The position numbers were made by a program, and so were the translations under genes. From a virus, in the IMG/VR virus record IMGVR_UViG_3300000557_000765, positions 308 to 20,859 of that record: a stretch of DNA of 20,552 nt. One strand, given 5' to 3'. Of this stretch, positions 4,354 through 19,622 are shown one piece after another (position 1 is the first letter of the stretch; each line of letters opens with the position of its first letter). The notes beneath the pieces were generated by a model. That model was not told the origin of the DNA. It was given only the letters and a program-made list of their open reading frames with translations, and did no database searches.

Positions 4354-7300
4354 ATGGACTGGACGAAGTTTATCCAAAAACCTGAAGATAAAGAGGGAAT
4401 AAGCTGGACTGATTTTATTCGTCCTGATGATGAGGATAGGGACTATGCTGCTGAGCTTAGGCGGATTAGGGGTATTGCCGAGCCTCCCGAGGAAGCTCCA
4501 GATATAAGTTTTACTGATATAATGAGAGGAGCCCTTGCCTTCCCTCAAAGAGCAGGGCACGAGGCTGCCCGGGTTATAATGGGGATGGGAGGCCCGGAAG
4601 CGGCCGATGAATGGTTTGGAGCCGAGCATCGTCAGCCTCCAACAACTGGCTGGGAAGCGGCTGATATTACCGCTGATATTTTAGGAGAATTAACAGGGCA
4701 CGTAACCGGATTAAAGATGATAGGCGGGGTAACAAGACCTGCTGTTAGTTTATTGGGCAGAGGAATTACTACTGCCGCCCCTACTTTAACCAGGACCCTA
4801 CAACCATTTACTGCTCCCTTAGCTCCAGGAGTGCCTTTTGCAACAACAATGGCTGCAAGGACCGGAGTAGAACACCTTGCAGGAGAAGAGAAAGAAGCTG
4901 TTGATTACTTAGCCTCTGCTGCCTGGGGATTTGGGGCAGGAGTTACTTCTCCATTGGCGAGCAAATTAATAAGAGATATGCCTACGCAATTTAAAGGGAA
5001 CCCTTATGCAGCAGCTGAAACCGTATTAAGCGGAGCTGCTGCTGGTTTAGGCGGGGAAGTGGCTCAATCTATAGCAACAGGAGAAGTCTCCTCCCCTGGC
5101 GATATAGGTATGAGTATGGCTATGATGGCCTTATTCAATCTTTCAAGCATTATAACTAACCCTGCACAAAAAGCGGCTGTTATTGGAGCCCGTGATAAAG
5201 TTTTAAGGGATAGAGCAGCCTATGATGAATGGCTTAGAATAATAGGAGCATCACGTAAAGATTCACAACAAGACATTTTTAGAAAAGAAAGAGAGTTTTG
5301 GAAAGCACAAGAACAACGCTATGATGCAGAAAAGGCAGAACAAGCAAGGAAATTAGAAGCTCATATGAAAGAAATGATTAAAAAGTATATAGATTTACCC
5401 CCAGATGCTACTGATAGACAAATTAAAAACGCATTATATAAAACCTTCCACCCGGATATAGCCAGGGACAAGCCGAGTTTTACCGATTTTGGTAGGGCAA
5501 TCAAAGTAGCAAAACAAGTTATTCGGGCTACCCCTATGCCTGAAGGGGCTAAAAAGACTGCAGAACAGATGGTAACGAAATCACAAAAGACTTTGTTCCC
5601 TTCTCTTACCCACGGGGCCCGCCCTGTTATTTCGGTAGGCGATGACGGCAAAGTAAGAGTAACGGGCTTTGGAGAGGACGTTCGCTCTCCAAGAGATATT
5701 GATTTAGCTAAAGTACCGACAGTTTACGAGGAAACTCCTGCAATTACCGGAGATAGACCAACAACAGCAGAAGAAAGACAATTACAAAAAGATATGGTTA
5801 GAGATGCAGGGATTAAATATATTGCAGACCAGCTAAGAACCGCTGAGAGAGCAACCTTTACGACTGACGTGAGCCTTGAACCTGATATGCACGGCAAAGT
5901 GCGGCGAATAGGGGAATTTGAATTTTCCAGAAGTGATGAAGGGAAACCGTTTAAGGTTATTTCTTATGACTATGAAACAGGCGAGCCTGTGCCACGCATT
6001 AGACATAAATTTGATAGATTAGAGCAGGTTGCTGAATTTATACACTATTTGACGCCACATCCTTCTTATAAGGAAGTGAAAGAGTTAGAAACAGCACCGA
6101 GAGAGGTTGAGCCGTTTACTGTTCCTAAAGATAAGGTTTTAAATCAGTTAGAAGGTATTATTGAAAATTGGAAAGCAACCGGAATAGAAAAGATTTCTCC
6201 TGATGACCCCAGGAAAGGGGCGGCTGAAGAAAGGCAAGTCTATGATCAATTAAAAAGTTTGGTTAGAAAGCTAAAAGACCCCAGGGTTGCTGCGGAATAT
6301 ATTGGACCAAAAGAGGAATATTTAAAGTTACGAGGAGATCTAGAGAGATTTACAATTGGTACAGCAGAAAAGTTTGTTGAAAATTTGGTAGCAAGACAAA
6401 AAACTCCAGAAGAAGTTGCGGCAGACCAGATTCGGGAAGAAAGAGAAGCTATTGCTGAACCAGAACCTACTCCTGCCCCAGAACCTACTCCAGAACCTGT
6501 TGCTGAACCCGTGCTTACAGTAGAAACAAAAGATGATACCTTTGAGCTTAAAGTAGGCGATTGGGTGCAGCTTCCTGATAGAGCTGCTCCTGTTAAGGTG
6601 GTTGATGATACAGATACCGCCACGCTATCTTTAGAAACAGAACACGGGGCCGTGATGAAAAGGGGTAGAGGGGCTTTAGAGGGAGCACAAAAGATTGAAG
6701 AACCTCCCGCTGAGCCTGCTGCTCCAGAACCTGTTGAGGACCCCCCGGCAACAAAGGAAGCCCCTGGGCCTGAAGATGCTCCTGCCCCGGGTCCACTTGA
6801 ACAGAGGGTCCACCAGGAGATTACTGAAAAGGACACCGAGTTAGCAGATTATATGGTTCAAAGGGCTATGGACTGGTTAGGGAAAGAACCATTATCTAAA
6901 TTACAAGAAGCAGGTCCTGATGACGATATTATTGGCGAGGTTAATGCCCCGCTTTTAATTAACAAAATTGGTATAGCAGCCACCGGAACTACTCAGTTAA
7001 ACAAGGCCAGAGAAGCAGGAGTTATGAGGTTAATGTTGGAGAAAGGGGATATTACCCAGGAAGAATGGGACGACTACCTTAGCGGCTTAGGATTAAAAGA
7101 ACCGGAGAAGGAAAAGTTTATACAACGCAGGGTTGATGCTGAGGCTTTTGAGCGGACGATGAAACACTTTGGGTATGAAAGCCTTTACGACAAGGAAAGA
7201 GCCGAACAAAAGAGGCCTATGGTAGCCAAATCAGATTTTAAGTTATGGGAAGAGAGGTATCTGGAAGAAGTAAAAAAAGATGAACCCTTTTTAAAAAGAC

Positions 7301-10300
7301 TAACTGACGAATGGGAGGGCCAGGTTGCGGAAACTGAAAGGGCACGGATAATTGACGAGAGCTTCGGCAAAGAGGATTGGGAGGTCCCTCAATGGGTAAT
7401 AGTTGAAAGAAGTGGGGGAGCCCGAAACGTGGTTATAGAAAGACACCAGGCCGAGGTGAAAAAAGCCCTGGAAGAAGGCAAACCCGTTCCCCAGGAAGTA
7501 TTAGAAGAATACCCTGATTTAGTTCCAGAAGCTCCTGAACCAGAGGTAGCACCCACAAAAGAGCCTCCTGCTCCTGAGCCCGCCCCTCCCAAGCCTGATA
7601 TAGAATTAGACGTTAAGGGGAAAACCTCAAAAGCAAAAGCTGAAAATATCGAAATCGGAACTCAATTCGCCCTGGTAGAAGCTGACAAATTAATATCTTC
7701 CCACGATATTATGTTAAGAGAGGACCCCAGGTTTCCTGAAGAATTGCAGCCCCGGGAAAGAACTGAAAGAATGGCTACCGAAGCACAAATGTATGAGATC
7801 ATTCAAAAACTGGACCCTGAAAGATTAGGAGAAAATATCATAGCCGCACACGGCAGTCCGATAATAGGTAAAGATGGCATAGTTGAAACAGGGAATATAA
7901 GGACTATTTCTTTAAAAAGGCTTTACAACGATGAGCACCCCAATGCAACTAGATACCGTCAATGGCTGAGCGAGAACGCTGAGCAATTTGGCTTGTCTAA
8001 AGATCAGTTAGATAAGATGGAGAAGCCCATTCTTGTAAGGGTAAGAACTTCTGAGTTAAGCAGTGAAGAGCGAGTAAATTTTGTAAGGACCGCAAATAAA
8101 GAAGAAACTGCAGCGATGAGTGCTACCGAGCAGGCTATGGTTGATGCTGATAGGGTAGATGCTAACCTGATCAGACTTTTTGTCCCTTATGAAGACGGGA
8201 GGATAGATCACCCGGCTAATCGTGATTTCATTACTGCCTTTTTAAATAAGGTAGTTGGTGTAGCTAAAAAGGGAGAATATATTGATAAGACTGGCCGGAT
8301 TTCCCAGGCAGGGATAAAGAGAATACAGAACGCTATCTTTGCCCGGGCTTACCGGGACCCTGCAACCCTGGAAAGACTGGCTGAGGACCCGAGTAGTGAA
8401 ATTAAAAATATTACAACTGCTATGCTGAATGTTGCTCCCAGGGTAATTCAATTACAGGAGAAAATTAAGAAAGGGCTTGCGTATGACCTTGATTTAAGCC
8501 CTGAGATGAAAGAAGCAGCGAAGAAAGTATTGCATATGAAGGCGGAGAATTTAACTCTTGATGAGTTTTTAAAGAAAAAAAGTCTATTCGATGAAGGAAG
8601 AACCGACCCATTAGTAGCTGATATTCTTATTATGATGGATAATTTTAAGCGGTCTGCCAAGAAGATGACAAAGGTTTTCAATAACTATCTGGGAGCAATG
8701 GAAAAAGCCCCGGACCCCAGGCAGCAAACATTTATTGGCCTGGATAAGAAGTTTGAAAGACAACGGCCCGATAGAAGAGAGGTTCTTAGAGGGGCTGTAT
8801 ATGATGTAGAAGGGAGGAAATACGATGACCCGTCATTATTCGATGAGAAGAGAGCCGAGGCCGTACGTAGTGAGGAGCATCCAAAAACGGATAGAGACCC
8901 AACGGCAGGTGAAACAACAAGCCCGAGATTCCTTAGAAGAAGGCCGACAGAAGAAGAAGCCTTTAAGCCCGAGGACCGACACAAAATAATAGAAGAGCCC
9001 ATTGACCCGGACGCTGAGCCTGCTTCTGCCAGGGATATTCGCAAGTATATTACAGATGAAATAGGAATTTACGTAGGCAAGAAGCGGCTGTTCACCCCAG
9101 GAGCTGAAGGGGAATACAGGCCTTTTGAGCGAGTTATGAGGGTTAAAGATACTACCGACCTGCACACCATTGCCCACGAATTTGGCCACGATGTTAGAAA
9201 ATATCTTAACTTAAATCTTGAAAAGCATAGGGCTGAATTAATACAGGCCTTTGCACGGTCTGACCTGGACGAGACAAAATATAAACCAGAGGAGCTCCCC
9301 TATGAAGGGGCCGCTGAAGTAGTCAAGGCCTATCTATTGAAAGGCCGGACTGGAGCTATTGAAATGGCCCCCAGCTTTACTTTCCACATTGAAGATCAGA
9401 TGACTAAGGATAAGGAGTTTGAGGAAAAGTTTGAGGGCCTGGTGGATTTATACCAAAGGTTTAGAACCCAAAATGCAAAAGAATATTTAAGGGGATTTCT
9501 TGTTTCCGGCTTTAAGAAGAAAGAGCCCCAGCTTACCACTAAAGCGGAAAGGCTTTATTTTTACTGGTGGGATGATTTAATGTTTTTATACAAAATCCCA
9601 TCGGAAGTTTTGGGATTAGACCCCCGCAAGCTAGAAATGCCTATGGTAGAAAACCCCTATCATCTTGCACTTTCTACTAGAGTTTTAGGGCCGCCCCTTG
9701 AAACAATGTTTTCTAAATGGGCTTACGACCCCTACTATCGTGATGCAGGGCCGCCTCTCAAGAAAATCCTGGAGCCTGTAAAGGATTATCTTTCTGATGG
9801 AGAAAAGGTTGGAGATTTCTCATTATATATCTTTGCAAAAGCAGCACAGGAACGGCAAGAGTTAGGTATTAGAGTAGGGCCTGACCAGGCAGCCCTTAAC
9901 AAAGTAGTAGCGGAAATTGAAGCAGAACACCCGGACTGGATTGAGGTAAATAAACAGCTGCAGGACTTTAAGAAACTCCTTCTTGATTGGGCAGTTTGGG
10001 GGGACCTGATCGCTCCAGGTGCAAAGAAGAGAATGACCGATAAGTACGAATGGCATATGCCTCTATATGTTTTCCTGGGAGAAGAGCAGCCCATTACTCA
10101 GCTAACAGCAGGAAATAGGTTTGTGAACCTTCCAGAATCGTTTAAGAGAGCGATTGGAACTAATGCTGAACGCCTGGACCCGATTGAGTCAATAGTTAAA
10201 GATTTTGTTTATATAATGAACAATGTTTACAGAAACAAATCAGCATTAAAATTTCTGGATACTTTATATAAATCTCCAGAATTAGGGAAAATGGGGCATA

Positions 10301-12051
10301 AATTACCTAAACCGACTGTTGTTGATGAAGTTTCCTTAAAGGCATTAAAAGGTGATCTGAAGAAAGCTGGATTAACCGATGAAGAGCTGGAAGAGTTGGA
10401 CCTTGATACAATGGTAAAGACCTATTCAAAGGTGCACTATGCACGAATGAAAGAGCATCGAGAAAATATTGTTACCGTAAGAAGAAAAGGAGAAGTTGAG
10501 TTCTGGCAGGTTCACCCGGAGATATACGATACTTTAATGAGTATAGGATCAAGACCCGAAACCAGCCAGATAATAGATAAGTTGGTTGCTCCCTTCACTA
10601 AACTTTTTGCTAAAGGCTCCTTGCTTTCTCCAACATTTAGCCTGGTTAGAAACCCCGTTCGAGATGCAGTCATAGGATTTACTCACGGCGGGGATTTAGG
10701 TGTTAAACCGTTTGTTGATTTAGCCAGAGGAATTACTCTTATTGCTAAAAAAGATCATAAGGTAGATTTGTTTAATGCGGCCAAAGGAGCACGTTCTGGT
10801 ATTTCCAGAATAATAAGCCAAGCAGATGAGTTTACTGTTGATAAGTTAATGAAAGAGCCAGGCATAGGCGAGAAGGTAAATCCTGTTAAATTCTTAGAGA
10901 CCTTGTTATCATCAGTCGAGCACGGCTCCAGGATAGGTTATTTTGCTAAAAGAATTGATCAAGTAGATAAAGACTCTTTAACTAAAGAAGAATGGCAGGA
11001 ACACGTTTTAAGAGCAGCAGCAGAGGCTAGAGGATTTATAAACCAGGATTATGCAATAAAAGGTAAATGGGCAAGTAAAGCAGACAAGGTTAGCCCCTTC
11101 TTTACTTCAACTGTAGGAGGACCAAGAACCACTTATGAAGCTATAAGAAGGGACCCCTGGGGACATGCCTGGAGGACTTTTGTGTCATTAACTTTGCCCT
11201 CTATGATCCTTTATCTCTTTAATCGCAACGACCCCCGTTATCAGGAACTGGAACAATGGAAAAAAGATTACTTCTGGACTTTCCTTACTCCTAATGGGAT
11301 GTTCCATCTCGTCAAACCATTTTTACCCGGCCTCTTATTCGCCTCTGGCCCCGAACGAGTTATGCAGGCGATTGATGAACAAGACCCTTCTGTTTTAACA
11401 GAATGGGCAAAAAATGTAGTGAAGTTTGGAGGCCCGGGCTGGGTTATTCCCTTACTAATGCCTACAATGGAATACTTAGCTAATCATAGCTTTTTTACAG
11501 GACGGTCAATAGTGCCACGATCTGAAGAGTATTTAATGCCAGCCGACCAGTATGGACCTGGTTCCAGCCTGGCAGCAAGAGTAATAGGTGCAAGAACAAA
11601 TCTTTCCCCACGTAAATTAGATCAGTTTACCAGAAGTTTAGGTAGCACATTATCTACGAATATATTAGATACCATTGACTTAATAGCTGGAGAAATGCCC
11701 CTTTCAGAATACGCTGCTTCTTTAGCAGGTTCCAGGCAAACAGATTATGCTGGAGCCAGGAGTGTTGATGAATTTTATGATGAGTTACGAGAATTGGAGA
11801 CTATTGAAAACACCATTCAGTTAAGGCACGTTCGGGGGCAGCCTATAGGCGACTTGCAATTAGACAGGCAAAGACTTGATCTGTTACGGAGATACAATGA
11901 TAGGATGACCACTATTCGTGGAAGGATAAGAGATATTCAGAACGACCCCAACCTTGACGATACTATAAAAGAGAGGCATTTGGAAGAGCTCAGGCTTATG
12001 ATGGTTAATTTAGCAAGAGAAGCTATGGGCCGGGAGCTCATTCAGCCTTAG
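4354..12051 (+). CDS. Giant polyvalent phage protein with J-domain-like, DdrB/ParB-like, metallopeptidase and LPD38-like regions
   Basis: This 2565-residue protein is the largest in the window. It starts at ATG 4354 after AGGGGTG. Residues 60-285 are Gly/Ala-rich and hydrophobic, perhaps membrane-inserting. Residues about 345-400 look like a J-domain, with HPD at 366-368 in ALYKTFHPDIARDK. An SH3-like segment lies near 724-780. Pro/Glu linkers at about 701-720, 782-815 and 1058-1082 separate modules. Residues about 1095-1460 resemble the DdrB-type ParB-like domain. HEFGH at 1608-1612 is a zinc metallopeptidase motif, and E1655 is a possible third ligand. Residues from about 2088 (GSLLSPTFSLVRNPVRD) resemble LPD38. 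Phage polyvalent proteins of this kind are thought to be packaged and delivered with the DNA. Last in the 192/573/2565-aa series, it may also be the gp16-like ejection protein. Domain calls are by eye. Confidence 0.8.
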   Translation: MDWTKFIQKPEDKEGISWTDFIRPDDEDRDYAAELRRIRGIAEPPEEAPDISFTDIMRGALAFPQRAGHEAARVIMGMGGPEAADEWFGAEHRQPPTTGWEAADITADILGELTGHVTGLKMIGGVTRPAVSLLGRGITTAAPTLTRTLQPFTAPLAPGVPFATTMAARTGVEHLAGEEKEAVDYLASAAWGFGAGVTSPLASKLIRDMPTQFKGNPYAAAETVLSGAAAGLGGEVAQSIATGEVSSPGDIGMSMAMMALFNLSSIITNPAQKAAVIGARDKVLRDRAAYDEWLRIIGASRKDSQQDIFRKEREFWKAQEQRYDAEKAEQARKLEAHMKEMIKKYIDLPPDATDRQIKNALYKTFHPDIARDKPSFTDFGRAIKVAKQVIRATPMPEGAKKTAEQMVTKSQKTLFPSLTHGARPVISVGDDGKVRVTGFGEDVRSPRDIDLAKVPTVYEETPAITGDRPTTAEERQLQKDMVRDAGIKYIADQLRTAERATFTTDVSLEPDMHGKVRRIGEFEFSRSDEGKPFKVISYDYETGEPVPRIRHKFDRLEQVAEFIHYLTPHPSYKEVKELETAPREVEPFTVPKDKVLNQLEGIIENWKATGIEKISPDDPRKGAAEERQVYDQLKSLVRKLKDPRVAAEYIGPKEEYLKLRGDLERFTIGTAEKFVENLVARQKTPEEVAADQIREEREAIAEPEPTPAPEPTPEPVAEPVLTVETKDDTFELKVGDWVQLPDRAAPVKVVDDTDTATLSLETEHGAVMKRGRGALEGAQKIEEPPAEPAAPEPVEDPPATKEAPGPEDAPAPGPLEQRVHQEITEKDTELADYMVQRAMDWLGKEPLSKLQEAGPDDDIIGEVNAPLLINKIGIAATGTTQLNKAREAGVMRLMLEKGDITQEEWDDYLSGLGLKEPEKEKFIQRRVDAEAFERTMKHFGYESLYDKERAEQKRPMVAKSDFKLWEERYLEEVKKDEPFLKRLTDEWEGQVAETERARIIDESFGKEDWEVPQWVIVERSGGARNVVIERHQAEVKKALEEGKPVPQEVLEEYPDLVPEAPEPEVAPTKEPPAPEPAPPKPDIELDVKGKTSKAKAENIEIGTQFALVEADKLISSHDIMLREDPRFPEELQPRERTERMATEAQMYEIIQKLDPERLGENIIAAHGSPIIGKDGIVETGNIRTISLKRLYNDEHPNATRYRQWLSENAEQFGLSKDQLDKMEKPILVRVRTSELSSEERVNFVRTANKEETAAMSATEQAMVDADRVDANLIRLFVPYEDGRIDHPANRDFITAFLNKVVGVAKKGEYIDKTGRISQAGIKRIQNAIFARAYRDPATLERLAEDPSSEIKNITTAMLNVAPRVIQLQEKIKKGLAYDLDLSPEMKEAAKKVLHMKAENLTLDEFLKKKSLFDEGRTDPLVADILIMMDNFKRSAKKMTKVFNNYLGAMEKAPDPRQQTFIGLDKKFERQRPDRREVLRGAVYDVEGRKYDDPSLFDEKRAEAVRSEEHPKTDRDPTAGETTSPRFLRRRPTEEEAFKPEDRHKIIEEPIDPDAEPASARDIRKYITDEIGIYVGKKRLFTPGAEGEYRPFERVMRVKDTTDLHTIAHEFGHDVRKYLNLNLEKHRAELIQAFARSDLDETKYKPEELPYEGAAEVVKAYLLKGRTGAIEMAPSFTFHIEDQMTKDKEFEEKFEGLVDLYQRFRTQNAKEYLRGFLVSGFKKKEPQLTTKAERLYFYWWDDLMFLYKIPSEVLGLDPRKLEMPMVENPYHLALSTRVLGPPLETMFSKWAYDPYYRDAGPPLKKILEPVKDYLSDGEKVGDFSLYIFAKAAQERQELGIRVGPDQAALNKVVAEIEAEHPDWIEVNKQLQDFKKLLLDWAVWGDLIAPGAKKRMTDKYEWHMPLYVFLGEEQPITQLTAGNRFVNLPESFKRAIGTNAERLDPIESIVKDFVYIMNNVYRNKSALKFLDTLYKSPELGKMGHKLPKPTVVDEVSLKALKGDLKKAGLTDEELEELDLDTMVKTYSKVHYARMKEHRENIVTVRRKGEVEFWQVHPEIYDTLMSIGSRPETSQIIDKLVAPFTKLFAKGSLLSPTFSLVRNPVRDAVIGFTHGGDLGVKPFVDLARGITLIAKKDHKVDLFNAAKGARSGISRIISQADEFTVDKLMKEPGIGEKVNPVKFLETLLSSVEHGSRIGYFAKRIDQVDKDSLTKEEWQEHVLRAAAEARGFINQDYAIKGKWASKADKVSPFFTSTVGGPRTTYEAIRRDPWGHAWRTFVSLTLPSMILYLFNRNDPRYQELEQWKKDYFWTFLTPNGMFHLVKPFLPGLLFASGPERVMQAIDEQDPSVLTEWAKNVVKFGGPGWVIPLLMPTMEYLANHSFFTGRSIVPRSEEYLMPADQYGPGSSLAARVIGARTNLSPRKLDQFTRSLGSTLSTNILDTIDLIAGEMPLSEYAASLAGSRQTDYAGARSVDEFYDELRELETIENTIQLRHVRGQPIGDLQLDRQRLDLLRRYNDRMTTIRGRIRDIQNDPNLDDTIKERHLEELRLMMVNLAREAMGRELIQP

Positions 12052-13622: not shown

Positions 13623-13624
13623 GT
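13596..13624 (+). promoter_or_regulatory. Candidate sigma-70-type promoter for the early operon
   Basis: TTGCTT at 13596-13601 and TATAGT at 13619-13624 are separated by 17 bases. The -10 is close to consensus and the -35 is weak. The site follows a terminator and precedes the first early gene, where a promoter is expected. The -10 overlaps the right arm of the inverted repeat. Confidence 0.3.
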
Positions 13625-13650
13625 TGAAGAGTCAAGGAGGTGAATGGATA

Positions 13651-13905
13651 ATGAAGAAGCATAGAAGTGATTTTTCCCACCACGTAAAAAGAAAGCTAAA
13701 AAGATTTGACAGGGGAATACCCTGGCTGGCCGCTTATACTGGCATAAGTAAAAATTACCTGTGGGACCTCATCGCAGGAAGAAGGAGGTGGAATGAGGAG
13801 AATATGAGGAAGGTAGCGGATGTGCTGTTGATAGATATTCGCTACGTGGACCTGGAGGATGATTTTGTGTACCAGGCAATTATAGGAGGTGAAGATAAAC
13901 CGTGA
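13651..13905 (+). CDS. Small HTH (XRE/Cro-like) DNA-binding protein
   Basis: This 84-residue protein starts at ATG 13651, eight bases after AAGGAGGTG; an in-frame TTG at 13624 is possible but less suitable. Residues 1-18 are basic (MKKHRSDFSHHVKRKLKR). Residues about 21-60 fit a helix-turn-helix: IPWLAAYTGISKNYLWDLIAG, followed by an RRRW stretch and a helix ending KVADVLLI. It probably binds DNA as a regulator of the early operon, perhaps at the inverted repeat about 30 bases upstream. Its stop overlaps the next start (GTGA, 13902-13905), so it is co-expressed with the recombination genes. An accessory recombination or replication role is also possible. Confidence 0.65.
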   Translation: MKKHRSDFSHHVKRKLKRFDRGIPWLAAYTGISKNYLWDLIAGRRRWNEENMRKVADVLLIDIRYVDLEDDFVYQAIIGGEDKP

Positions 13906-15896
13906 AGTTGTTGGAGTTAAAGCTGGAAAACTTCAAGGGTATTAAAGAGTTTACCCTCAATACAGAGGGCGAGGACGTAGAAGTATTAGGCACGAATGAA
14001 ACGGGCAAGAGCACCCTGTTTGATGCTTTCCTCTGGCTGTTGTTCGGTCGGGATAGCAGGAACCAGGCTAATGCTCAGGTAAAAACTTTAAAAGAAGGAA
14101 ACCCTATTCACGGCCTGGACCATTCGGTTGAGGCCTTGTTGGAGTTAGCTGACGGGAAGAACATCAAGCTGAAAAAGATATATAAGGAAAAATGGGAGAA
14201 GAAACGGGGGCAATCGGAGGCTCAGTTTTCAGGGCACACGACTACTTATGAAATTAATGACCGCCCTGATATTAAGCAGAAAGAGTTTAACGAAAAAATC
14301 TCCGAAATAGCTGGTGATGAACAGGTTTTCCGGTTAGTAACTGATCCTTTGTATTTTAATGAAGGGTTGACCTGGAAGGAACGCAGGAAGCTAATATTTG
14401 AAGTTTGTGGAGATATTCCCCCGGAAGAGATAATAGAAGCTACCCCTGAATTGGAGGGGATCGAGCAGGAGTATATGGACGTGCTGCTTCCTGGGGATTA
14501 TGAGGAGGCACAAAAGGCCCTGGCAGCCAAGAAGAAAAAGACTAACCAACGCCTGGAGGAAATAAGGGTCCGGGTAGATGAGAACAATAAGAATATGCCG
14601 AAGGAAGTAAATTTTAACGAGGGCGAATTAAAAACCATACAAAAACAGATAGATGAGTTAAAGGAGAAACGCTCCCAGGCCTTTTATACTGGCTACGATG
14701 AAGAGCTGAACAATAAGATAACAGAGTTAAAGCAGGAAATATCCGACCTGAGAGAGCAGGCCCGGAAAGAGTTTGAGGAACAGGGAGAAGAGCTAAGGAA
14801 GGCACGTAACGATGCTCAATATACCCAGGATCACCTGAAGAGCCTGATCAACCGCAACAAGAACAGGCTCCAGGAGATAGCGGAAGAGAAAGCGAAGGTA
14901 GAAGATAACTTAAATAAATTAGCCCGGGAATGGGAGCTATTATATCACCAGGAGTTTGAATTAAATGCAGAAGATGATGATACCCACTGTCCTACCTGCG
15001 GCCAGATGTTGCCTTACGATGAAGTTCACGAAGCACAGCAAAAAGCAGAAGAGAATTTTAAGAAGAAGAAGGCCGAGGATCTAGAAGAGAACGAGCAGGC
15101 AGGAAAAGCCTTAGCAGATAAGAAGGCCACCCTGGAAGAAGAAGAGGCCAAGCTGAAACAGGAGAAAGAGCAGAATGAGAAGTCTTTAGGTAGCACCACT
15201 ACTGAGATTTCTCAAATTGAGAAAAAGATAGACGATAACGACAGGCAGCGGCTACAGGTTTCTGATAGCCCTGAGATAAAGAAGATGCAGGAAGAGATTG
15301 ATCGCCTGGTCCAGAAGCAGGGCGAGGCGAAAACTACTGATACCACTGAATACGATGAAAAGATTGCTAAACTACAGGAACGAGAAGAGGAGCTTCAAGA
15401 GGTTGCCAGGCAGCAGAGGCAGCTAGAGGAGATTAAAGATCGGGTTTCTCTACTGTTAAAAGAAGAAAGACACCTGGGAGAATACCTTAATGAGCTGGAG
15501 AAGCAGGAATATCTGATTGAAACATTCATTAAAGAGAAGGTAAAGCTAACAAAGGAGCGAGTGAACCAGTTTTTCAATCTACCACAATTCAAGCTATTTG
15601 AATACCAGATTAACGGTGGGATAAGAGAAACCTGCGAAACACTATATAAAGGAGTGCCGTATTCGGTAATGAATTGGGGGGCCAGGATAAACATAGGCCT
15701 GGATATTATTAACACCCTGAGCAAGCACTATGACTTTAGAGCCCCTATATTCGTGGACAATGCTGAGGCGGTAGCTGAATTGGTAGAAACAGAAGCCCAG
15801 CAAATTCCTCTATATATGAAGCCCGAATACGATAGCCTGGAGGTTGTTGTTAAGGGTGAAGAGAAGAAAGAGGATAAGAAGGCTACTTTATTTTAA
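13902..15896 (+). CDS. SbcC/Rad50-like AAA ATPase with zinc hook
   Basis: This 664-residue SMC-type ATPase starts at GTG 13902, overlapping the previous stop and preceded by AGGAGGTG. The Walker A motif is GTNETGKST at residues 30-38. Coiled-coil arms occupy roughly 200-540 and are interrupted by a CPTC zinc hook (C363, C366), which dimerises Rad50/SbcC proteins. The C-terminal head has NWGARINIGLDIIN (591-604) where an ABC signature is expected, and a Walker-B-like IFVDNAE (D619, E622). It is shorter than cellular SbcC (about 1000 residues), as is usual for phage versions. These proteins tether and process DNA ends with a nuclease partner. No SbcD/Mre11 gene is adjacent, so the downstream MBL-fold protein is a candidate partner (inference). 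The C-terminus is Lys-rich. Confidence 0.85.
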   Translation: MKLLELKLENFKGIKEFTLNTEGEDVEVLGTNETGKSTLFDAFLWLLFGRDSRNQANAQVKTLKEGNPIHGLDHSVEALLELADGKNIKLKKIYKEKWEKKRGQSEAQFSGHTTTYEINDRPDIKQKEFNEKISEIAGDEQVFRLVTDPLYFNEGLTWKERRKLIFEVCGDIPPEEIIEATPELEGIEQEYMDVLLPGDYEEAQKALAAKKKKTNQRLEEIRVRVDENNKNMPKEVNFNEGELKTIQKQIDELKEKRSQAFYTGYDEELNNKITELKQEISDLREQARKEFEEQGEELRKARNDAQYTQDHLKSLINRNKNRLQEIAEEKAKVEDNLNKLAREWELLYHQEFELNAEDDDTHCPTCGQMLPYDEVHEAQQKAEENFKKKKAEDLEENEQAGKALADKKATLEEEEAKLKQEKEQNEKSLGSTTTEISQIEKKIDDNDRQRLQVSDSPEIKKMQEEIDRLVQKQGEAKTTDTTEYDEKIAKLQEREEELQEVARQQRQLEEIKDRVSLLLKEERHLGEYLNELEKQEYLIETFIKEKVKLTKERVNQFFNLPQFKLFEYQINGGIRETCETLYKGVPYSVMNWGARINIGLDIINTLSKHYDFRAPIFVDNAEAVAELVETEAQQIPLYMKPEYDSLEVVVKGEEKKEDKKATLF

Positions 15897-15908
15897 GGAG
15901 GTTCCTGA

Positions 15909-16862
15909 ATGAGTAAAGAGAAGGAAGAAACTCAATTACAAGAGCAGACGGTTTCTGAAAGGTTTGTAAGTATGGTGGAACGGCAATGGAAGGCAGAGAT
16001 CGGCCAGGCCGTGCAGATGGATGATTACAAAAGAACCCTGGCCCAGCATCTGTTCCTGCACGCTGACAGGGTATTGAAAGAACTGAACCAGAAGCGGAAA
16101 ACCAGCCACAAGGAATTGTGCTGGCAGAATGTAAATATGAATAAAACCGCCCTTGATGCAGTCCATAGGGTAAACCTGGGAATTGACGCATTACAGCCGA
16201 ACCACGTAAATGTGATCCCTTACTACGACAGCAAGTTGGAGCAGTATAACCTGGACCTGCGATTGGGTTATGAGGGCAAGCACTACGTTCATAAAACCCT
16301 GGCCCTGGAGCCCCCGGAGCAGATTATATATCAGCTGGTCCACGAAACTGACCTGTTTACGCCTTTGATGAAGAATGAGAACAGGGAAGTAGAGTCGTAC
16401 GAATTTGAGATAAAAAACCCGTTCAACCGGGGAGAGATAGTCGGCGGATTTGGCTACATTGTGCATAAGGAAAAAACCAAGAATAAGCTGGTCCTGGTCT
16501 CCCGAGAAGAGATAGATAAGGCCCGCAAGCAGGCTAAGACAGATGATTTCTGGAACCGGGAATTTGAAAAAATGGCATATAAAACTGTAGTCTATAGGAC
16601 CCTTAAACACGTTCCCCTGGACCCCAGGAAGGTTAATTACAGCAGCTATGCCGTTGTGGAGAGCCAGGATCAGGATATGCAGGTTATAGAAGAGAAACAG
16701 AGGGAGGCGAATAAAACTCACATTGACTTCGGGAGTGATGATATTCAAGATGCGGAGTTTTCTGAAGTTGAAGAAGAGGAACAAGAAGAGCCACCCCCAC
16801 CTTCCGAGGAAGAAGCCCCGCCGGAAGAAGAACCCTCAAAGAAACCGCCGTATTACAGATGA
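15909..16862 (+). CDS. recT: RecT-family single-strand annealing protein
   Basis: This 317-residue protein anneals complementary single strands during phage recombination and end repair. Family features are DALQPNHVNVIPYY (about 93-106), GYEGK (120-124) and the C-terminal core signature FWNREFEKMAYKTVVYR plus TLKHVPL (214-237), matching the conserved 'W..fe.Ma.Kt..r.l.k..P' block of RecT. Residues 270-317 form an acidic, Pro-rich tail ending KKPPYYR. It resembles acidic protein-interaction tails such as that of SSB, but lacks the SSB tip. ATG 15909 follows TTAAGGAGG. Its stop overlaps the start of the MBL-fold gene (ATGA, 16859-16862), which links the two functionally. Confidence 0.9.
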   Translation: MSKEKEETQLQEQTVSERFVSMVERQWKAEIGQAVQMDDYKRTLAQHLFLHADRVLKELNQKRKTSHKELCWQNVNMNKTALDAVHRVNLGIDALQPNHVNVIPYYDSKLEQYNLDLRLGYEGKHYVHKTLALEPPEQIIYQLVHETDLFTPLMKNENREVESYEFEIKNPFNRGEIVGGFGYIVHKEKTKNKLVLVSREEIDKARKQAKTDDFWNREFEKMAYKTVVYRTLKHVPLDPRKVNYSSYAVVESQDQDMQVIEEKQREANKTHIDFGSDDIQDAEFSEVEEEEQEEPPPPSEEEAPPEEEPSKKPPYYR

Positions 16863-17584
16863 AGGTTAAGAGTTTAGCCTCTGGCAGCGGGGGGAATTGC
16901 TATCTATTAGATGATGGTGAAACCTCCCTGCTGCTGGAATGTGGGCTACGCTGGCCGGAAATTCAGAGGGGCCTGAATTTTGAAACCAGTGCGATTAAAG
17001 GTTGTTTTGTCTCCCACGAGCATAAAGACCACTGCAAGGGCATATTAGACCTGCTGAAAAGGGGCTACCAGGTATTTCTCAGTCAAGGGACTGCAGACAA
17101 TATCCCAGAATTAAAGCAGCTAACTTCCCATCACAGGCTGACTATAATACAAAGGATAGAGCCTTTAACATTCGATAAATGGAGGGTAATGCCCTTTGAA
17201 GTGCAGCACGATGCCGGAGAACCCCTGGGATTTTTAATCTTTAATCAAAGGGCCCATAAAAAGATATTATACGCAACCGATACCCATTACCTACGCTACA
17301 CGTATTCAGGATTAACCCATATCCTGGTGGAAACTAACTACAGTGAAGAGATAATAATGGAGAAAGTCAAAGATGGTCAAATGTCGGCAGAGCAGGCAAA
17401 ACGGGTTAGATCAAATCATTTTAGCCTGGAGGGAGTGATGGATTTTCTAAAGGCTAACGATCTAAGCGACCTGGAAGAAACCTGGCTATTACATTTATCG
17501 GCGATTAACAGTGATGAAAAAATGTTTAAAGAGGAGGTGCAAAAGCTCACAGGTAAGCCTGTCTATATTACAACTGAGAGGTGA
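16859..17584 (+). CDS. MBL-fold metallohydrolase, putative nuclease partner of RecT
   Basis: This 241-residue metallo-beta-lactamase-fold protein has the metal motif SHEHKDH (H53, H55, D57, H58), H117 in VQHDAGEP, D141 in YATDTH, and later NHFSLE and LLHLSAIN, a set typical of the YycJ/WalJ-type group. The N-terminal SLASGSGGNCYLL is also characteristic of that group. YycJ-type proteins have been described as DNA exonucleases. Next to RecT and an SbcC-like ATPase, this one may produce the single strands that RecT anneals, replacing a lambda- or RecE-type exonuclease; that is inference. The start overlaps the recT stop by four bases, and the stop (17582-17584) is near the next start, so the genes are co-translated. 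Confidence 0.85.
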   Translation: MKVKSLASGSGGNCYLLDDGETSLLLECGLRWPEIQRGLNFETSAIKGCFVSHEHKDHCKGILDLLKRGYQVFLSQGTADNIPELKQLTSHHRLTIIQRIEPLTFDKWRVMPFEVQHDAGEPLGFLIFNQRAHKKILYATDTHYLRYTYSGLTHILVETNYSEEIIMEKVKDGQMSAEQAKRVRSNHFSLEGVMDFLKANDLSDLEETWLLHLSAINSDEKMFKEEVQKLTGKPVYITTER

Positions 17585-17589
17585 TTGGC

Positions 17590-17874
17590 ATGGCCTGGTC
17601 AAAGGCTCGTGTATTGCAGGAGTTATTGAGGTTAAGCTCCGATGGAATTGCCTGCTCTGCTAATGATCAAAGCTGGTTGTATAGGCAGACGGTGGAGGTA
17701 TTTGGTTCCTGGGAAGTAGGGTGTAGGAATGCGGGCTTATATCCCAGGAACAATTTAAGGAAAGGCGGTGAGAGTGAAGAGGCCAGAAAATTCAAGCTGG
17801 AGCAGAACAAAATGACGCCGAGAATGTGGGAATTTTGTAGAGCTCTAGTATTGGAGGCCCGAAATCAATTATGA
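17590..17874 (+). CDS. Small protein with a homing-endonuclease-associated (HNH) repeat-like domain
   Basis: From ATG 17590 this is 94 residues; GTG 17581 is an in-frame alternative. GAGAGGTG (17576-17583) sits at the right distance for the ATG. Residues 3-52 (from WSKARVLQELLRLSSDG through VFGSWEVGCRNAGLYP) fit the homing endonuclease-associated repeat: a W-s-k opening, a helix, then a second helix ending F-G-S-W-x-x-[AG]-x-x-x-A-G-L. These are DNA-binding repeats usually found in series beside HNH nuclease domains. Here a single repeat stands without a nuclease, followed by a basic helical tail. It overlaps the helicase-loader start by four bases (17871-17874), so it may help recognise a replication origin or recruit the loader. 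That role is inference. Confidence 0.65.
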   Translation: MAWSKARVLQELLRLSSDGIACSANDQSWLYRQTVEVFGSWEVGCRNAGLYPRNNLRKGGESEEARKFKLEQNKMTPRMWEFCRALVLEARNQL

Positions 17875-18758
17875 ATATAATCTCAAAAGCAGATCCAGAA
17901 GTGTTAAAAAAGGTAAAAGAATTGAAGGCGGAAATAGAAGGACAGATTGAGGAAACTTCAGTCCAGGACTACTCCCAAGAGAATTTTCCCAAGTTGCAGC
18001 AATACATAGAAGGGATAGAAAAAGAGCATATACTGTCAAACTATTTCTCCCTGCGAAGTGCTGAGTTGGAGTTTATAGATTGCGAGAACTGCCCTGGGTT
18101 AGAGAGCTGCCCGAAAACTGCCAAAGGAGTTTTGCTGTTGGTCAGATTGTTGGACGGCCAAATAAAACCTTTTGCCAAAAAATGCACCCACAAGAAACGG
18201 GCTGAAATGCTCAATGGAAGCGGCCTGGGCAGCCGATTTAAGAGTCGCACCCTGGAAAACTTTGAAATACATCCCGGGAATAAAATAGCAATGGAAAAAG
18301 TTTCTGAATTTATCCAAAACTTTGAAGCAGATAGGCCCTCTTTATTCCTGGTGGGGCCTACCGGGGTAGGAAAAACTCATCTGGCAGCAGGGGCTACGCA
18401 GAAGATAATAGAGCAGGGTTATGAGGCAATGTTTATGCCCTGCCCGGATATGCTACAACGACTGAGGAATGAGTTTAACGAGGACGGCCCCAGGACCTTG
18501 ATGGGCAAGCTACAGAAAGTGCCTTTGTTGGTGCTGGATGACCTGGGGAGTGAAAATATTACTGGATGGGCTAAAGAAACATTCTTTAACCTGATCAATT
18601 ATCGGTATGAGGGATATAAGCCGATTATCGTAACCACCAACTGTAGCAAAAAAATGCTGGAAGATAAGATAGGGAATAGGACGATCTCCAGGCTTTTGGA
18701 AATGTGTGCCTACAGAGCAGAAATGTCCGGGCCGGACTGGAGAATTAAAAAATTATAA
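17871..18758 (+). CDS. DnaI/DnaC-type helicase loader ATPase
   Basis: This 295-residue AAA+ protein is likely to load the replicative helicase at the phage origin. Walker A is GPTGVGKT (162-169), Walker B is LLVLDDLG (D223, D224), the sensor is VTTN, and NRTISRL supplies a likely arginine finger. The N-terminal third has a coiled, acidic start and a cysteine cluster C71, C74, C80 and C105, a probable zinc site of the kind found in DnaI N-terminal domains that bind the helicase. It overlaps the preceding small DNA-binding gene (ATGA). IstB-type transposition ATPases share the same core, but the N-terminal Cys region and the replication/recombination context favour a loader. The helicase itself is not in the window. 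Confidence 0.85.
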   Translation: MNIISKADPEVLKKVKELKAEIEGQIEETSVQDYSQENFPKLQQYIEGIEKEHILSNYFSLRSAELEFIDCENCPGLESCPKTAKGVLLLVRLLDGQIKPFAKKCTHKKRAEMLNGSGLGSRFKSRTLENFEIHPGNKIAMEKVSEFIQNFEADRPSLFLVGPTGVGKTHLAAGATQKIIEQGYEAMFMPCPDMLQRLRNEFNEDGPRTLMGKLQKVPLLVLDDLGSENITGWAKETFFNLINYRYEGYKPIIVTTNCSKKMLEDKIGNRTISRLLEMCAYRAEMSGPDWRIKKL

Positions 18759-19226: not shown

Positions 19227-19622
19227 ATGCAACCATTATGGGAAAGTATTATATACGGCAGGCCTGTTCCTAAAAAAAATTCGGCAATTTTAAATACCAG
19301 GGGCAAGAGGCCTATAATCCTACCTAGTAAAGCATATAAAACGTACCGCTCAGACTTCCTCACGCAAGCGAGAAGGCCTTTGAGCCCCATTCAGATACCT
19401 ATATGGGTCAAAGCAATTTACGTGCTCCCAGATCGCCGATGGTGGCCTGACCTGGTAGGATTATTGCAAGCAACCGGGGACTGTCTGGAAGATGCAGGAG
19501 TTATCGAAGATGACAAGCTGATTAGAAGCTGGGACCAGTCAAGGATAGCAGAGTTAGATAAAGATAACCCCCGGGCTGTAATAACGGTATATCCTCTGGG
19601 CGAGGAAATACCCGACGGGTGA
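19227..19622 (+). CDS. RusA-family Holliday-junction resolvase-like protein, altered acidic motif
   Basis: This 131-residue protein has the RusA layout: GRPVPKKNS (11-19), PSKAYKTY (33-40), then RRWWPDLVGLLQATGDCLED (70-89) and AGVIEDDKLI (90-99). RusA enzymes cut four-way junctions as dimers using acidic residues in D-x-D-N and a downstream D-D. Here the first motif reads D75-L-V77-G78, so the second acidic residue and the Asn are replaced by Val and Gly; D85, D95 and D96 are kept. It may be a variant subfamily with a different metal site or a weakened enzyme. ATG 19227 follows CGGAGGT. The stop overlaps the next gene (GTGA, 19619-19622). Confidence 0.8.
   Translation: MQPLWESIIYGRPVPKKNSAILNTRGKRPIILPSKAYKTYRSDFLTQARRPLSPIQIPIWVKAIYVLPDRRWWPDLVGLLQATGDCLEDAGVIEDDKLIRSWDQSRIAELDKDNPRAVITVYPLGEEIPDG

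Follow-up and report, generated by a model that had tools for sequence, protein, structure and literature searches.

Two-component phage recombinases, such as lambda Exo/Bet, RecE/RecT and YqaJ/YqaK, pair an annealase of the RecT/Bet superfamily with a nuclease encoded beside it, and in Gram-positive phages a RecT that lacks an exonuclease is a puzzle. In 2021, recT was described next to a lactamase B2 gene in Bacillales prophages with no recognisable exonuclease, and spread together with resistance genes was suggested (PMC8093625); SMC and AAA ATPases are listed near recT in the same paper. The metallo-beta-lactamase (MBL)-fold protein of a Paenibacillus larvae prophage has been listed among resistance-related sequences (PMC9341999). 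We analyzed the same gene pair, together with the gene of a Rad50-like ATPase, in a stretch of viral DNA of 20,552 bases (the window), which is positions 308 to 20,859 of the 20,859-base IMG/VR record IMGVR_UViG_3300000557_000765, itself a fragment. The three genes are as follows (E values in brackets).

13902..15896, plus strand: SbcC/Rad50-like ATP-binding cassette (ABC) ATPase with a zinc hook, 664 amino acids, GTG start (phrog_77 'SbcC-like', 1.9e-73; AAA_23, 1.3e-8)
15909..16862, plus strand: RecT-superfamily annealase, 317 amino acids (RecT PF03837, 4.4e-11; phrog_34753, 2.3e-43; phrog_148, 2.5e-16)
16859..17584, plus strand: MBL-fold metallo-hydrolase, 241 amino acids, YycJ-like, proposed 5'-3' exonuclease (Lactamase_B_2, 1.7e-13; phrog_392, 4.5e-72)

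The open reading frames (ORFs) and family matches bear out the first-pass annotation of this DNA, which had placed an SbcC-like ATPase, a RecT and an MBL-fold protein here; the four-base overlap of recT and the MBL gene that it had reported is likewise present, the RecT stop and the MBL start sharing ATGA. All three genes run in one direction within an early operon. From the comparison of phage genomes presented below, the ATPase and the MBL appear as near-obligate partners and as the constant unit of a cassette in which it is the annealase that can be exchanged. The grouping is not rare, the cassette being widespread, nor is it new: the recT-MBL pair has been in print since 2021 (PMC8093625). 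What appears to be new is the near-obligate partnership of ATPase and MBL, their co-divergence, the exchange of the annealase core and the shared annealase tail; relative to PMC8093625 (supplements not covered), what goes further is the partnership, the range past Bacillales, the swapping of cores and the motif in the tail. We found no report of the three-gene cassette, of an activity of this MBL or of the tail motif in the open-licence literature, supplements not covered.

As in the two-component recombinases, an annealase gene stands beside that of a putative nuclease, and the C-terminus of the annealase is the part expected to dock (PMC7496540). The putative nuclease differs in having the MBL fold instead of being of the lambda-Exo/YqaJ, RecE or DUF3799 type, and the cassette differs further in nearly always including a Rad50-like ATPase and in having interchangeable annealase cores behind a common tail motif. 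With SbcCD/Mre11-Rad50 the ATPase shares the Rad50 head fold, the Walker A motif and the zinc hook, but it lacks the signature serine and the Walker B glutamate, and the MBL stands in the place of the nuclease. The MBL is similar in sequence to YycJ/WalJ and has the same metal-binding residues, whereas the phage MBLs of the lineage that includes the loci described first below (lineage 1) form a divergent branch and belong to a recombination operon, not to the walRK operon. Apyc1 also has the MBL phosphodiesterase fold; unlike Apyc1, the MBL of the cassette has fixed recombination neighbours, and Apyc1 was not the nearest sequence relative found.

Linkage of the cassette across phages

A search of viral contigs with the MBL protein gave 66 loci, and the ATPase lies upstream in 62 of them; the other four (L008, L044, L046 and L047) each retain merely 0.8-1.6 kb of upstream sequence. 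In the reverse direction, a scan with the ATPase alignment, used in place of a single-protein scan that had recovered one locus, gave 564 relatives. Among the best 80 of these, 78 have MBL and annealase neighbours, and the two exceptions are cut contigs that end 228 and 1,096 bases from the ATPase. The first-pass annotation had suggested a survey of the co-occurrence of the three genes, and in these two sets and the window they are colinear, in the order ATPase-annealase-MBL, in 141 of 148 loci. Six loci are incomplete (L008, L044, L046, L047, L078 and L079) and one is not colinear (L038); the 148 include contigs reached twice, and the non-redundant number is 129. The best 80 of the 394 relatives that the MBL has in named genome contigs made up a third set, and the ATPase is present at 80/80 of these loci. 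Chance neighbourhood of the three genes is ruled out by this reciprocal linkage of ATPase and MBL.

According to deposited annotation, the cassette is found in Bacillus phage Page, Porphyromonas phage 005b, Cellulophaga phage phi13:2, Bacteroides phage BS-TP4, Listeria phage LP041 and Stenotrophomonas phage BUCT704, and also in Staphylococcus phage PVL, where the ATPase is annotated as two ORFs. A collection of 50,697 phage records gave 201 matches to the MBL and 99 to the ATPase; at least two of the 201 are the YycJ of a bacterial chromosome deposited as a phage, and many others belong to the Paenibacillus lineage treated as the second lineage below. The window RecT used as a tblastn probe matched nothing in these records, a scan of viral contigs with it likewise found nothing, and a phrog_2185-type annealase probe had no match in the phage records.

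Two deposited phages, OR844989.1 (L155) and OR846587.1 (L156), resemble a bacterial chromosome, with genes in walRK-yycHIJ order as judged by reading. The ATPase is split into two or more ORFs in L070, L020 and L043, through sequencing error or decay, and L061 carries a TnpB/transposase-like ORF (8839-9978, labelled by reading) between the annealase and MBL genes.

The window's record and 49 related records, any of which may be incomplete, were surveyed for rival nucleases. YqaJ, DUF3799, PDDEXK_1 and Cas4, the exonuclease families searched for, were found in 0/50 records each, the window's 20,859-base piece included, and an SbcD/Mre11-type Metallophos protein was found in 1/50, leaving 49 cassette records, that of the window among them, without one. 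The first-pass annotation had stated that none of the common exonucleases is present and that the zinc-hook ATPase has no SbcD partner. Both statements agree with these results, and a RusA-like protein is the only nuclease family that Pfam recognises among the 17 window ORFs scanned; because the record is only a 20.9 kb fragment, the negative for a rival exonuclease is limited, and another one may lie elsewhere in the phage. The sole Metallophos-positive record (G045) holds the most divergent MBL locus, L067.

Exchange of the annealase core

After three of the 129 non-redundant loci (L037, L133 and L143) had been dropped for having no middle ORF of 180 amino acids, 126 annealases were compared. 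Their PHROG matches were to phrog_148 (89), phrog_2185 (15), phrog_34753 (15), phrog_2760 (11), phrog_252, which is Bet (11), and phrog_561 (2), and one protein may match several families. When the last 110 residues were removed and the remaining cores were grouped by blastp (1e-6 over 60 residues), five groups of 83, 15, 15, 11 and 2 members were obtained, without any match between groups. These groups are probably distant members of one superfamily, so that a different group here means one beyond the reach of BLAST. The family alignment of RecT kept 60 proteins of 200-400 amino acids.

Pairwise identities were compared over 121 loci, five of the 126 being dropped since their ATPase ORF fell outside 600-760 amino acids. 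The identity of the MBLs follows that of the ATPases (Spearman rho 0.85, a value reached by 0/300 permutations) and not that of the annealases (rho 0.06, reached by 43/300). Within the largest annealase group alone, where the annealase alignment is sound, the values are 0.85 for MBL-ATPase, 0.39 for MBL-annealase and 0.46 for ATPase-annealase, all beyond 300 permutations. There are 156 locus pairs in which MBL identity and ATPase identity each exceed 60%, and in 61 of these the two annealases belong to different core groups. As judged from these identities, the ATPase and the MBL diverge together while the annealase core is exchanged.

The shared annealase tail

Annealases with these distant cores share a motif past the core, E[IV]..NAN.E.[IL]D, and a C-terminal tip that is often GPGF. 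In the window they correspond to the following features.

16692..16727, plus strand: tail adaptor motif of RecT, residues 262-273, E....AN...ID, within REANKTHIDF (A267 and N268 nearly invariant in the 126)
16845..16859, plus strand: C-terminal tip PPYYR of RecT, a variant of GPGF that the pattern for counting tips does not cover

Within the last 110 residues, the loose form AN...[ILVMF][DNGES] occurs in 118/126 annealases and the strict form AN...[ILVMF]D in 109/126 (shuffled tails: mean 0.96, maximum 5), and the terminal tip P.?[FWY] occurs in 108/126 (shuffled tails: mean 0.88, maximum 5). The same patterns, unchanged, were applied to a second set of 65 distinct new annealases from genome contigs, which remained from 80 middle ORFs once two duplicates and 13 sequences already present in the first set had been removed; 63 have the loose motif, 63 the strict one and 60 the tip. 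The named cassette phages (n = 7) have the loose motif in seven cases, the strict motif in five and the tip in six.

The loose motif, the strict motif and the tip are each found in 0/46 distinct streptococcal Bet proteins belonging to a core group of the cassette, and neither the MBL nor the ATPase occurs in the 73 loci that gave these controls. They are also found in 0/16 separately chosen annealases, of which one (L160) is the seed of the streptococcal set. A control scan with a single RecT protein found two loci only. The loci of these 16 have no ATPase detectable by hidden Markov model (HMM) and an MBL in Polaribacter phage Freya_10 only, and in 12 of them an annotated exonuclease, DUF3799 or DUF1351 neighbours the annealase. 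The control Flyfo Tbat2_7, whose neighbour is DUF3799, shares 60% identity with a cassette Bet, yet it has no motif. As a side observation, the host field of MZ361826.1 (L275), phage vB_LmoS_C996, gives Hydrogenophilus, which is doubtful; Listeria is indicated both by what the phage is called and by a lin2602 note.

A Rad50-like ATPase with altered catalytic motifs

The ATPase alignment kept 57 proteins, window included, after proteins outside 600-760 amino acids, duplicates and L001 (the window's own locus) had been dropped; L052 was left out of the ATPase alignment A2 by choice. The motifs of the window protein and their conservation are listed here.

13989..14012, plus strand: Walker A GTNETGKS, residues 30-37 (N32 and K36 in 57/57)
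14988..14999, plus strand: zinc hook CPTC, residues 363-366 (both C363 and C366 in 57/57)
15663..15710, plus strand: degenerate ABC signature region, residues 588-603 (Ser of LSGG replaced by Asn591; N in 56/57)
15747..15767, plus strand: Walker B IFVDNAE, residues 616-622 (catalytic Glu replaced by Asn620; D619 in 57/57, N620 in 52/57)

In the third locus set, the residue after the Walker B aspartate is N in 75/80 loci, the other five not having been read. At the corresponding sites, the SbcC encoded on the Bacillus spizizenii chromosome reads LSGGE, FFLDE and ISH, whereas 12 members of the phage family, window included, have N-containing signatures (mostly LNNAA), IF[IV]DN and no switch histidine; because of an offset in the automatic alignment there, this comparison was made by eye. 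E622, two residues past Asn620, is invariant in 57/57 and could be an alternative base. The structure model of the ATPase (mean predicted local distance difference test, pLDDT, 87.8) best matches the Rad50 head 3qf7_B (Z 16.5, root-mean-square deviation 3.9, 239 residues), with SbcC and SMC heads close behind. As far as the alignments go, the protein differs from an ordinary SbcC lacking its partner, in that the catalytic glutamate and the signature serine are replaced family-wide. The degenerate catalytic motifs disfavour an ordinary SbcC that borrows the SbcD of the host.

The MBL-fold protein as a candidate exonuclease

The MBL set kept 65 proteins of 200-300 amino acids; L038, L049 and L061 were left out of the MBL alignment A1 by choice. 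The complete metal site claimed in the first-pass annotation is confirmed, as the ligands H53, H55, D57, H58, H117, D141 and H212, together with H187, are invariant in 65/65 sequences, window included. The central motif is at this position.

17015..17032, plus strand: metal-binding motif HEHKDH, MBL residues 53-58 (H53, H55, D57 and H58 in 65/65)

The closest cellular relative found for the window MBL is YycJ/WalJ, the YycJ of Staphylococcus aureus being matched by tblastn at 3e-9. That protein was identified by its position after walRKHI in L155, with the genes named by reading, and it is 24.6% identical to the window MBL over 268 columns (blastp 2e-15, in a tiny database), with shared metal residues. 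The PVL row of this comparison was disregarded because its sequence was out of frame. YycJ has been reported to be a 5'-3' double-stranded DNA exonuclease (PMC4801191, PMC9836290), a polarity that fits the need of RecT/Bet (PMC8093625). Nuclease activity and polarity of the phage MBL are suggested by this kinship, and the protein, misread in the past as an enzyme of antibiotic resistance, is probably a nuclease acting on DNA ends.

A second lineage of the cassette

Phages of Paenibacillus and Lysinibacillus have the same gene order, but their ATPase is shorter, with about 500 amino acids (phrog_1499), and the annealase that precedes the MBL is of phrog_2780. The MBL of the Paenibacillus phages also belongs to phrog_392 and is nearer to YycJ (35%, 1e-47). 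The ATPase is present in 28/32 viral loci of this lineage; of the four without it, three are truncated and one (L240) is not. The 28 ATPases have CxxC in 27 cases and a DN.E Walker B in 22. The pairing of ATPase and MBL and the change in Walker B are thus, in the genomes compared, broader than the tail motif, which belongs to lineage 1.

Proposed mechanism and alternatives

RecT/Bet annealases need resection of 5'-3' polarity. The explanation that we favour, and consider reasonably probable, is that the three genes encode a single-strand-annealing cassette in which the ATPase and the MBL would resect DNA ends and pass the 3' strands to a tail-docked annealase. The Rad50-like ATPase would act as an ATP-gated clamp, its head dimer and zinc-hooked coiled coil holding the DNA ends, with a turnover that may be slow or proceed by altered chemistry. 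The MBL would be a YycJ-type 5'-3' double-strand exonuclease that replaces SbcD/Mre11 or lambda Exo. The resulting 3' single strands would be loaded on the RecT/Bet-type annealase, recruited through the tail adaptor E[IV]..NAN.E.[IL]D and the terminal P.F tip. It is proposed that annealase cores can be swapped while the pair is kept because the adaptor rather than the core makes the contact.

The sequence comparisons above supply the elements of this model directly: the cassette and its order, the co-divergence, the core swapping, the conserved adaptor of lineage 1, the intact metal site and the degenerate ATPase. From them we infer complex formation, docking of the tail and the partner to which it docks. 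The first-pass annotation had proposed that the three proteins may form one end-resection and annealing machine. That the genes encode one recombination machine is well supported by the genomics (gene order in 141/148 loci, the ATPase in 80/80, co-divergence of ATPase and MBL), and the part of the claim that makes the MBL the exonuclease rests on kinship with YycJ. More tentatively, the cassette may represent a third phage recombination architecture, a re-wired Rad50-like ATPase and MBL exonuclease engine into which distant annealases are plugged by a portable adaptor.

Several observations weigh against this model. Bacteroides phage BS-TP4 has a VRR-NUC gene near the cassette, which weakens the rival-nuclease negative for this phage, and L046 has no annealase in its 1.6 kb of upstream sequence. 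In Freya_10 (L163) the order is DUF1351, RecT and a divergent MBL, without the ATPase and without the tail motif; an MBL can therefore adjoin RecT alone, and DUF1351 may take the place of the ATPase there. The tail motif and the tip are found in 0/26 distinct annealases of the second lineage (from 31 loci), and the adaptor therefore does not accompany every ATPase-MBL pair. The tip of the window's own annealase is a variant. The second set of annealases is phylogenetically non-independent, with a median core identity of 83.6% to the nearest core of the first set (27/65 are below 80% and 7/65 are at 95% or more), and the 46 control Bets are a single streptococcal lineage. The RecT of Pasteurella phage Pmp10, beside an annotated exonuclease, has the near-miss NANIQDAEF. 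The identity between the MBL and YycJ is low, and the best folds for the MBL model (pLDDT 96.5), YhfI/BA1088, RNase Z, CPSF73 and RNase J, are nearly tied in Z (about 21-23). The VIA-align rows for this model are too flat for assigning a function, and families absent from them may still be relatives. Finally, an additional block of homology lies within the annealase gene in 8 of the 61 swapped pairs.

Three other roles for the MBL have to be considered. The fold ranking would suit an RNase of the RNase Z/J kind acting on phage transcripts, or an endonuclease acting on replication intermediates, with resection left to the AddAB and RecJ of the host. We think this unlikely, since the context of ATPase and annealase points to DNA and 241 amino acids are too few for the beta-CASP insertion of RNase J/CPSF73. 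The MBL might also be an Apyc1-like anti-defence enzyme, degrading the alarm signals that cyclic nucleotides provide and merely carried in the early operon: Apyc1 is an MBL-fold phosphodiesterase with HxHxDH (PMC9117128), its structure 7u2r is among the top Foldseek matches to the MBL model (TM 0.63/0.62), and a deposited relative is labelled 'anti-Pycsar nuclease, Apyc1-like'. Yet phmmer finds no match between the window MBL and the Apyc1 chains at E <= 0.01, whereas tblastn does find the YycJ of S. aureus, and the profile of the MBL family covers Apyc1 over about residues 2-66 only, no better than it covers other MBL enzymes. A defence-evasion gene would not be expected to be linked almost without exception to the genes of a Rad50-like ATPase and an annealase, nor to diverge together with the ATPase, and we regard this role as improbable. 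A phage-borne beta-lactam resistance gene, as suggested in PMC8093625 and PMC9341999, has a negligible chance of being the right description, given the YycJ-like sequence and the fixed recombination context; beta-lactamase identity was also rejected by the class B core model NF012229, which scores 19.1 bits against a cut-off of 100.

For the tail, docking on the single-stranded DNA-binding protein (SSB) or on the replication machinery of host or phage would be an alternative to docking on the ATPase or the MBL. Acidic tails with a hydrophobic P.F tip resemble the C-terminal tip of SSB. For its part, Red-beta binds the SSB tail (PMC7496540). An annealase with a different partner gene would encounter SSB as well, yet the motif is absent from all 46 and all 16 controls, and we hold this docking to be rather unlikely. 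It could be argued instead that the tail is kept by DNA linkage alone: recombination would replace the annealase core, and the 3' terminus of that gene, which contains the ribosome-binding site of the MBL, would remain attached to the MBL gene. When DNA homology was compared between the 61 pairs of swapped loci, it resumed in the last 40 nucleotides of the annealase gene in 40 pairs; in 3 pairs it did so 71-150 nucleotides ahead of the stop, in 10 pairs beyond it, and in the remaining 8 not at all. The tip could therefore travel with the MBL gene, whereas the AN motif, at a median of 138 nucleotides from the gene end (range 84-336), in most pairs cannot; the eight internal blocks and the three blocks that begin 71-150 nucleotides before the stop make linkage possible in some pairs. 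The tip is kept in 8 and the motif in 8 of the 10 loci with more than 90 nucleotides between the annealase and MBL genes, the GPGF codons differ at third positions (51 cases), and a Shine-Dalgarno-like 4-mer precedes the MBL start (longest ORF) in only 45/126. These features disfavour both a hidden ribosome-binding site and pure linkage, the latter being very unlikely in our estimation, and we read the conservation of the tail as selection on a protein contact.

If the favoured model, resection by the ATPase and MBL followed by transfer to a tail-docked annealase, is true, the pairing would supply the nuclease missing from RecT loci, a false resistance call on the MBL would be removed, and an ATP-gated alternative to lambda Red would become available. 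The portable tag may then let one exonuclease engine serve many annealases in the recombineering of bacteria in which RecE and Exo work poorly. The cassette also poses the question of how a Rad50-like protein works without its catalytic glutamate and signature serine.

Other genes in the window

The cassette is flanked by genes of the early operon, and a second helix-turn-helix (HTH) protein is encoded after the DnaC/IstB-like loader and before the RusA-like gene.

13624..13905, plus strand: HTH repressor-like ORF, sharing 4 bases with the start of the ATPase gene (phrog_1468, 1.5e-7)
17581..17874, plus strand: ORF of 97 amino acids, overlapping the MBL end by 4 bases (no Pfam or PHROG family at E <= 0.01)
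17871..18758, plus strand: DnaC/IstB-like helicase loader (phrog_50, 4.5e-60)
19227..19622, plus strand: RusA-like Holliday junction resolvase (PF05866, 4.7e-5; phrog_34, 1.2e-9)

Two proteins are encoded upstream of these genes. A 436-amino-acid protein (610-1920) has three CarboxypepD_reg stretches and Ig-like matches in Pfam and is possibly a virion surface protein. A large polyvalent protein of 2565 amino acids (4354-12051), with a ddrB-like ParB domain and LPD38 according to Pfam, is presumably injected together with the phage DNA.

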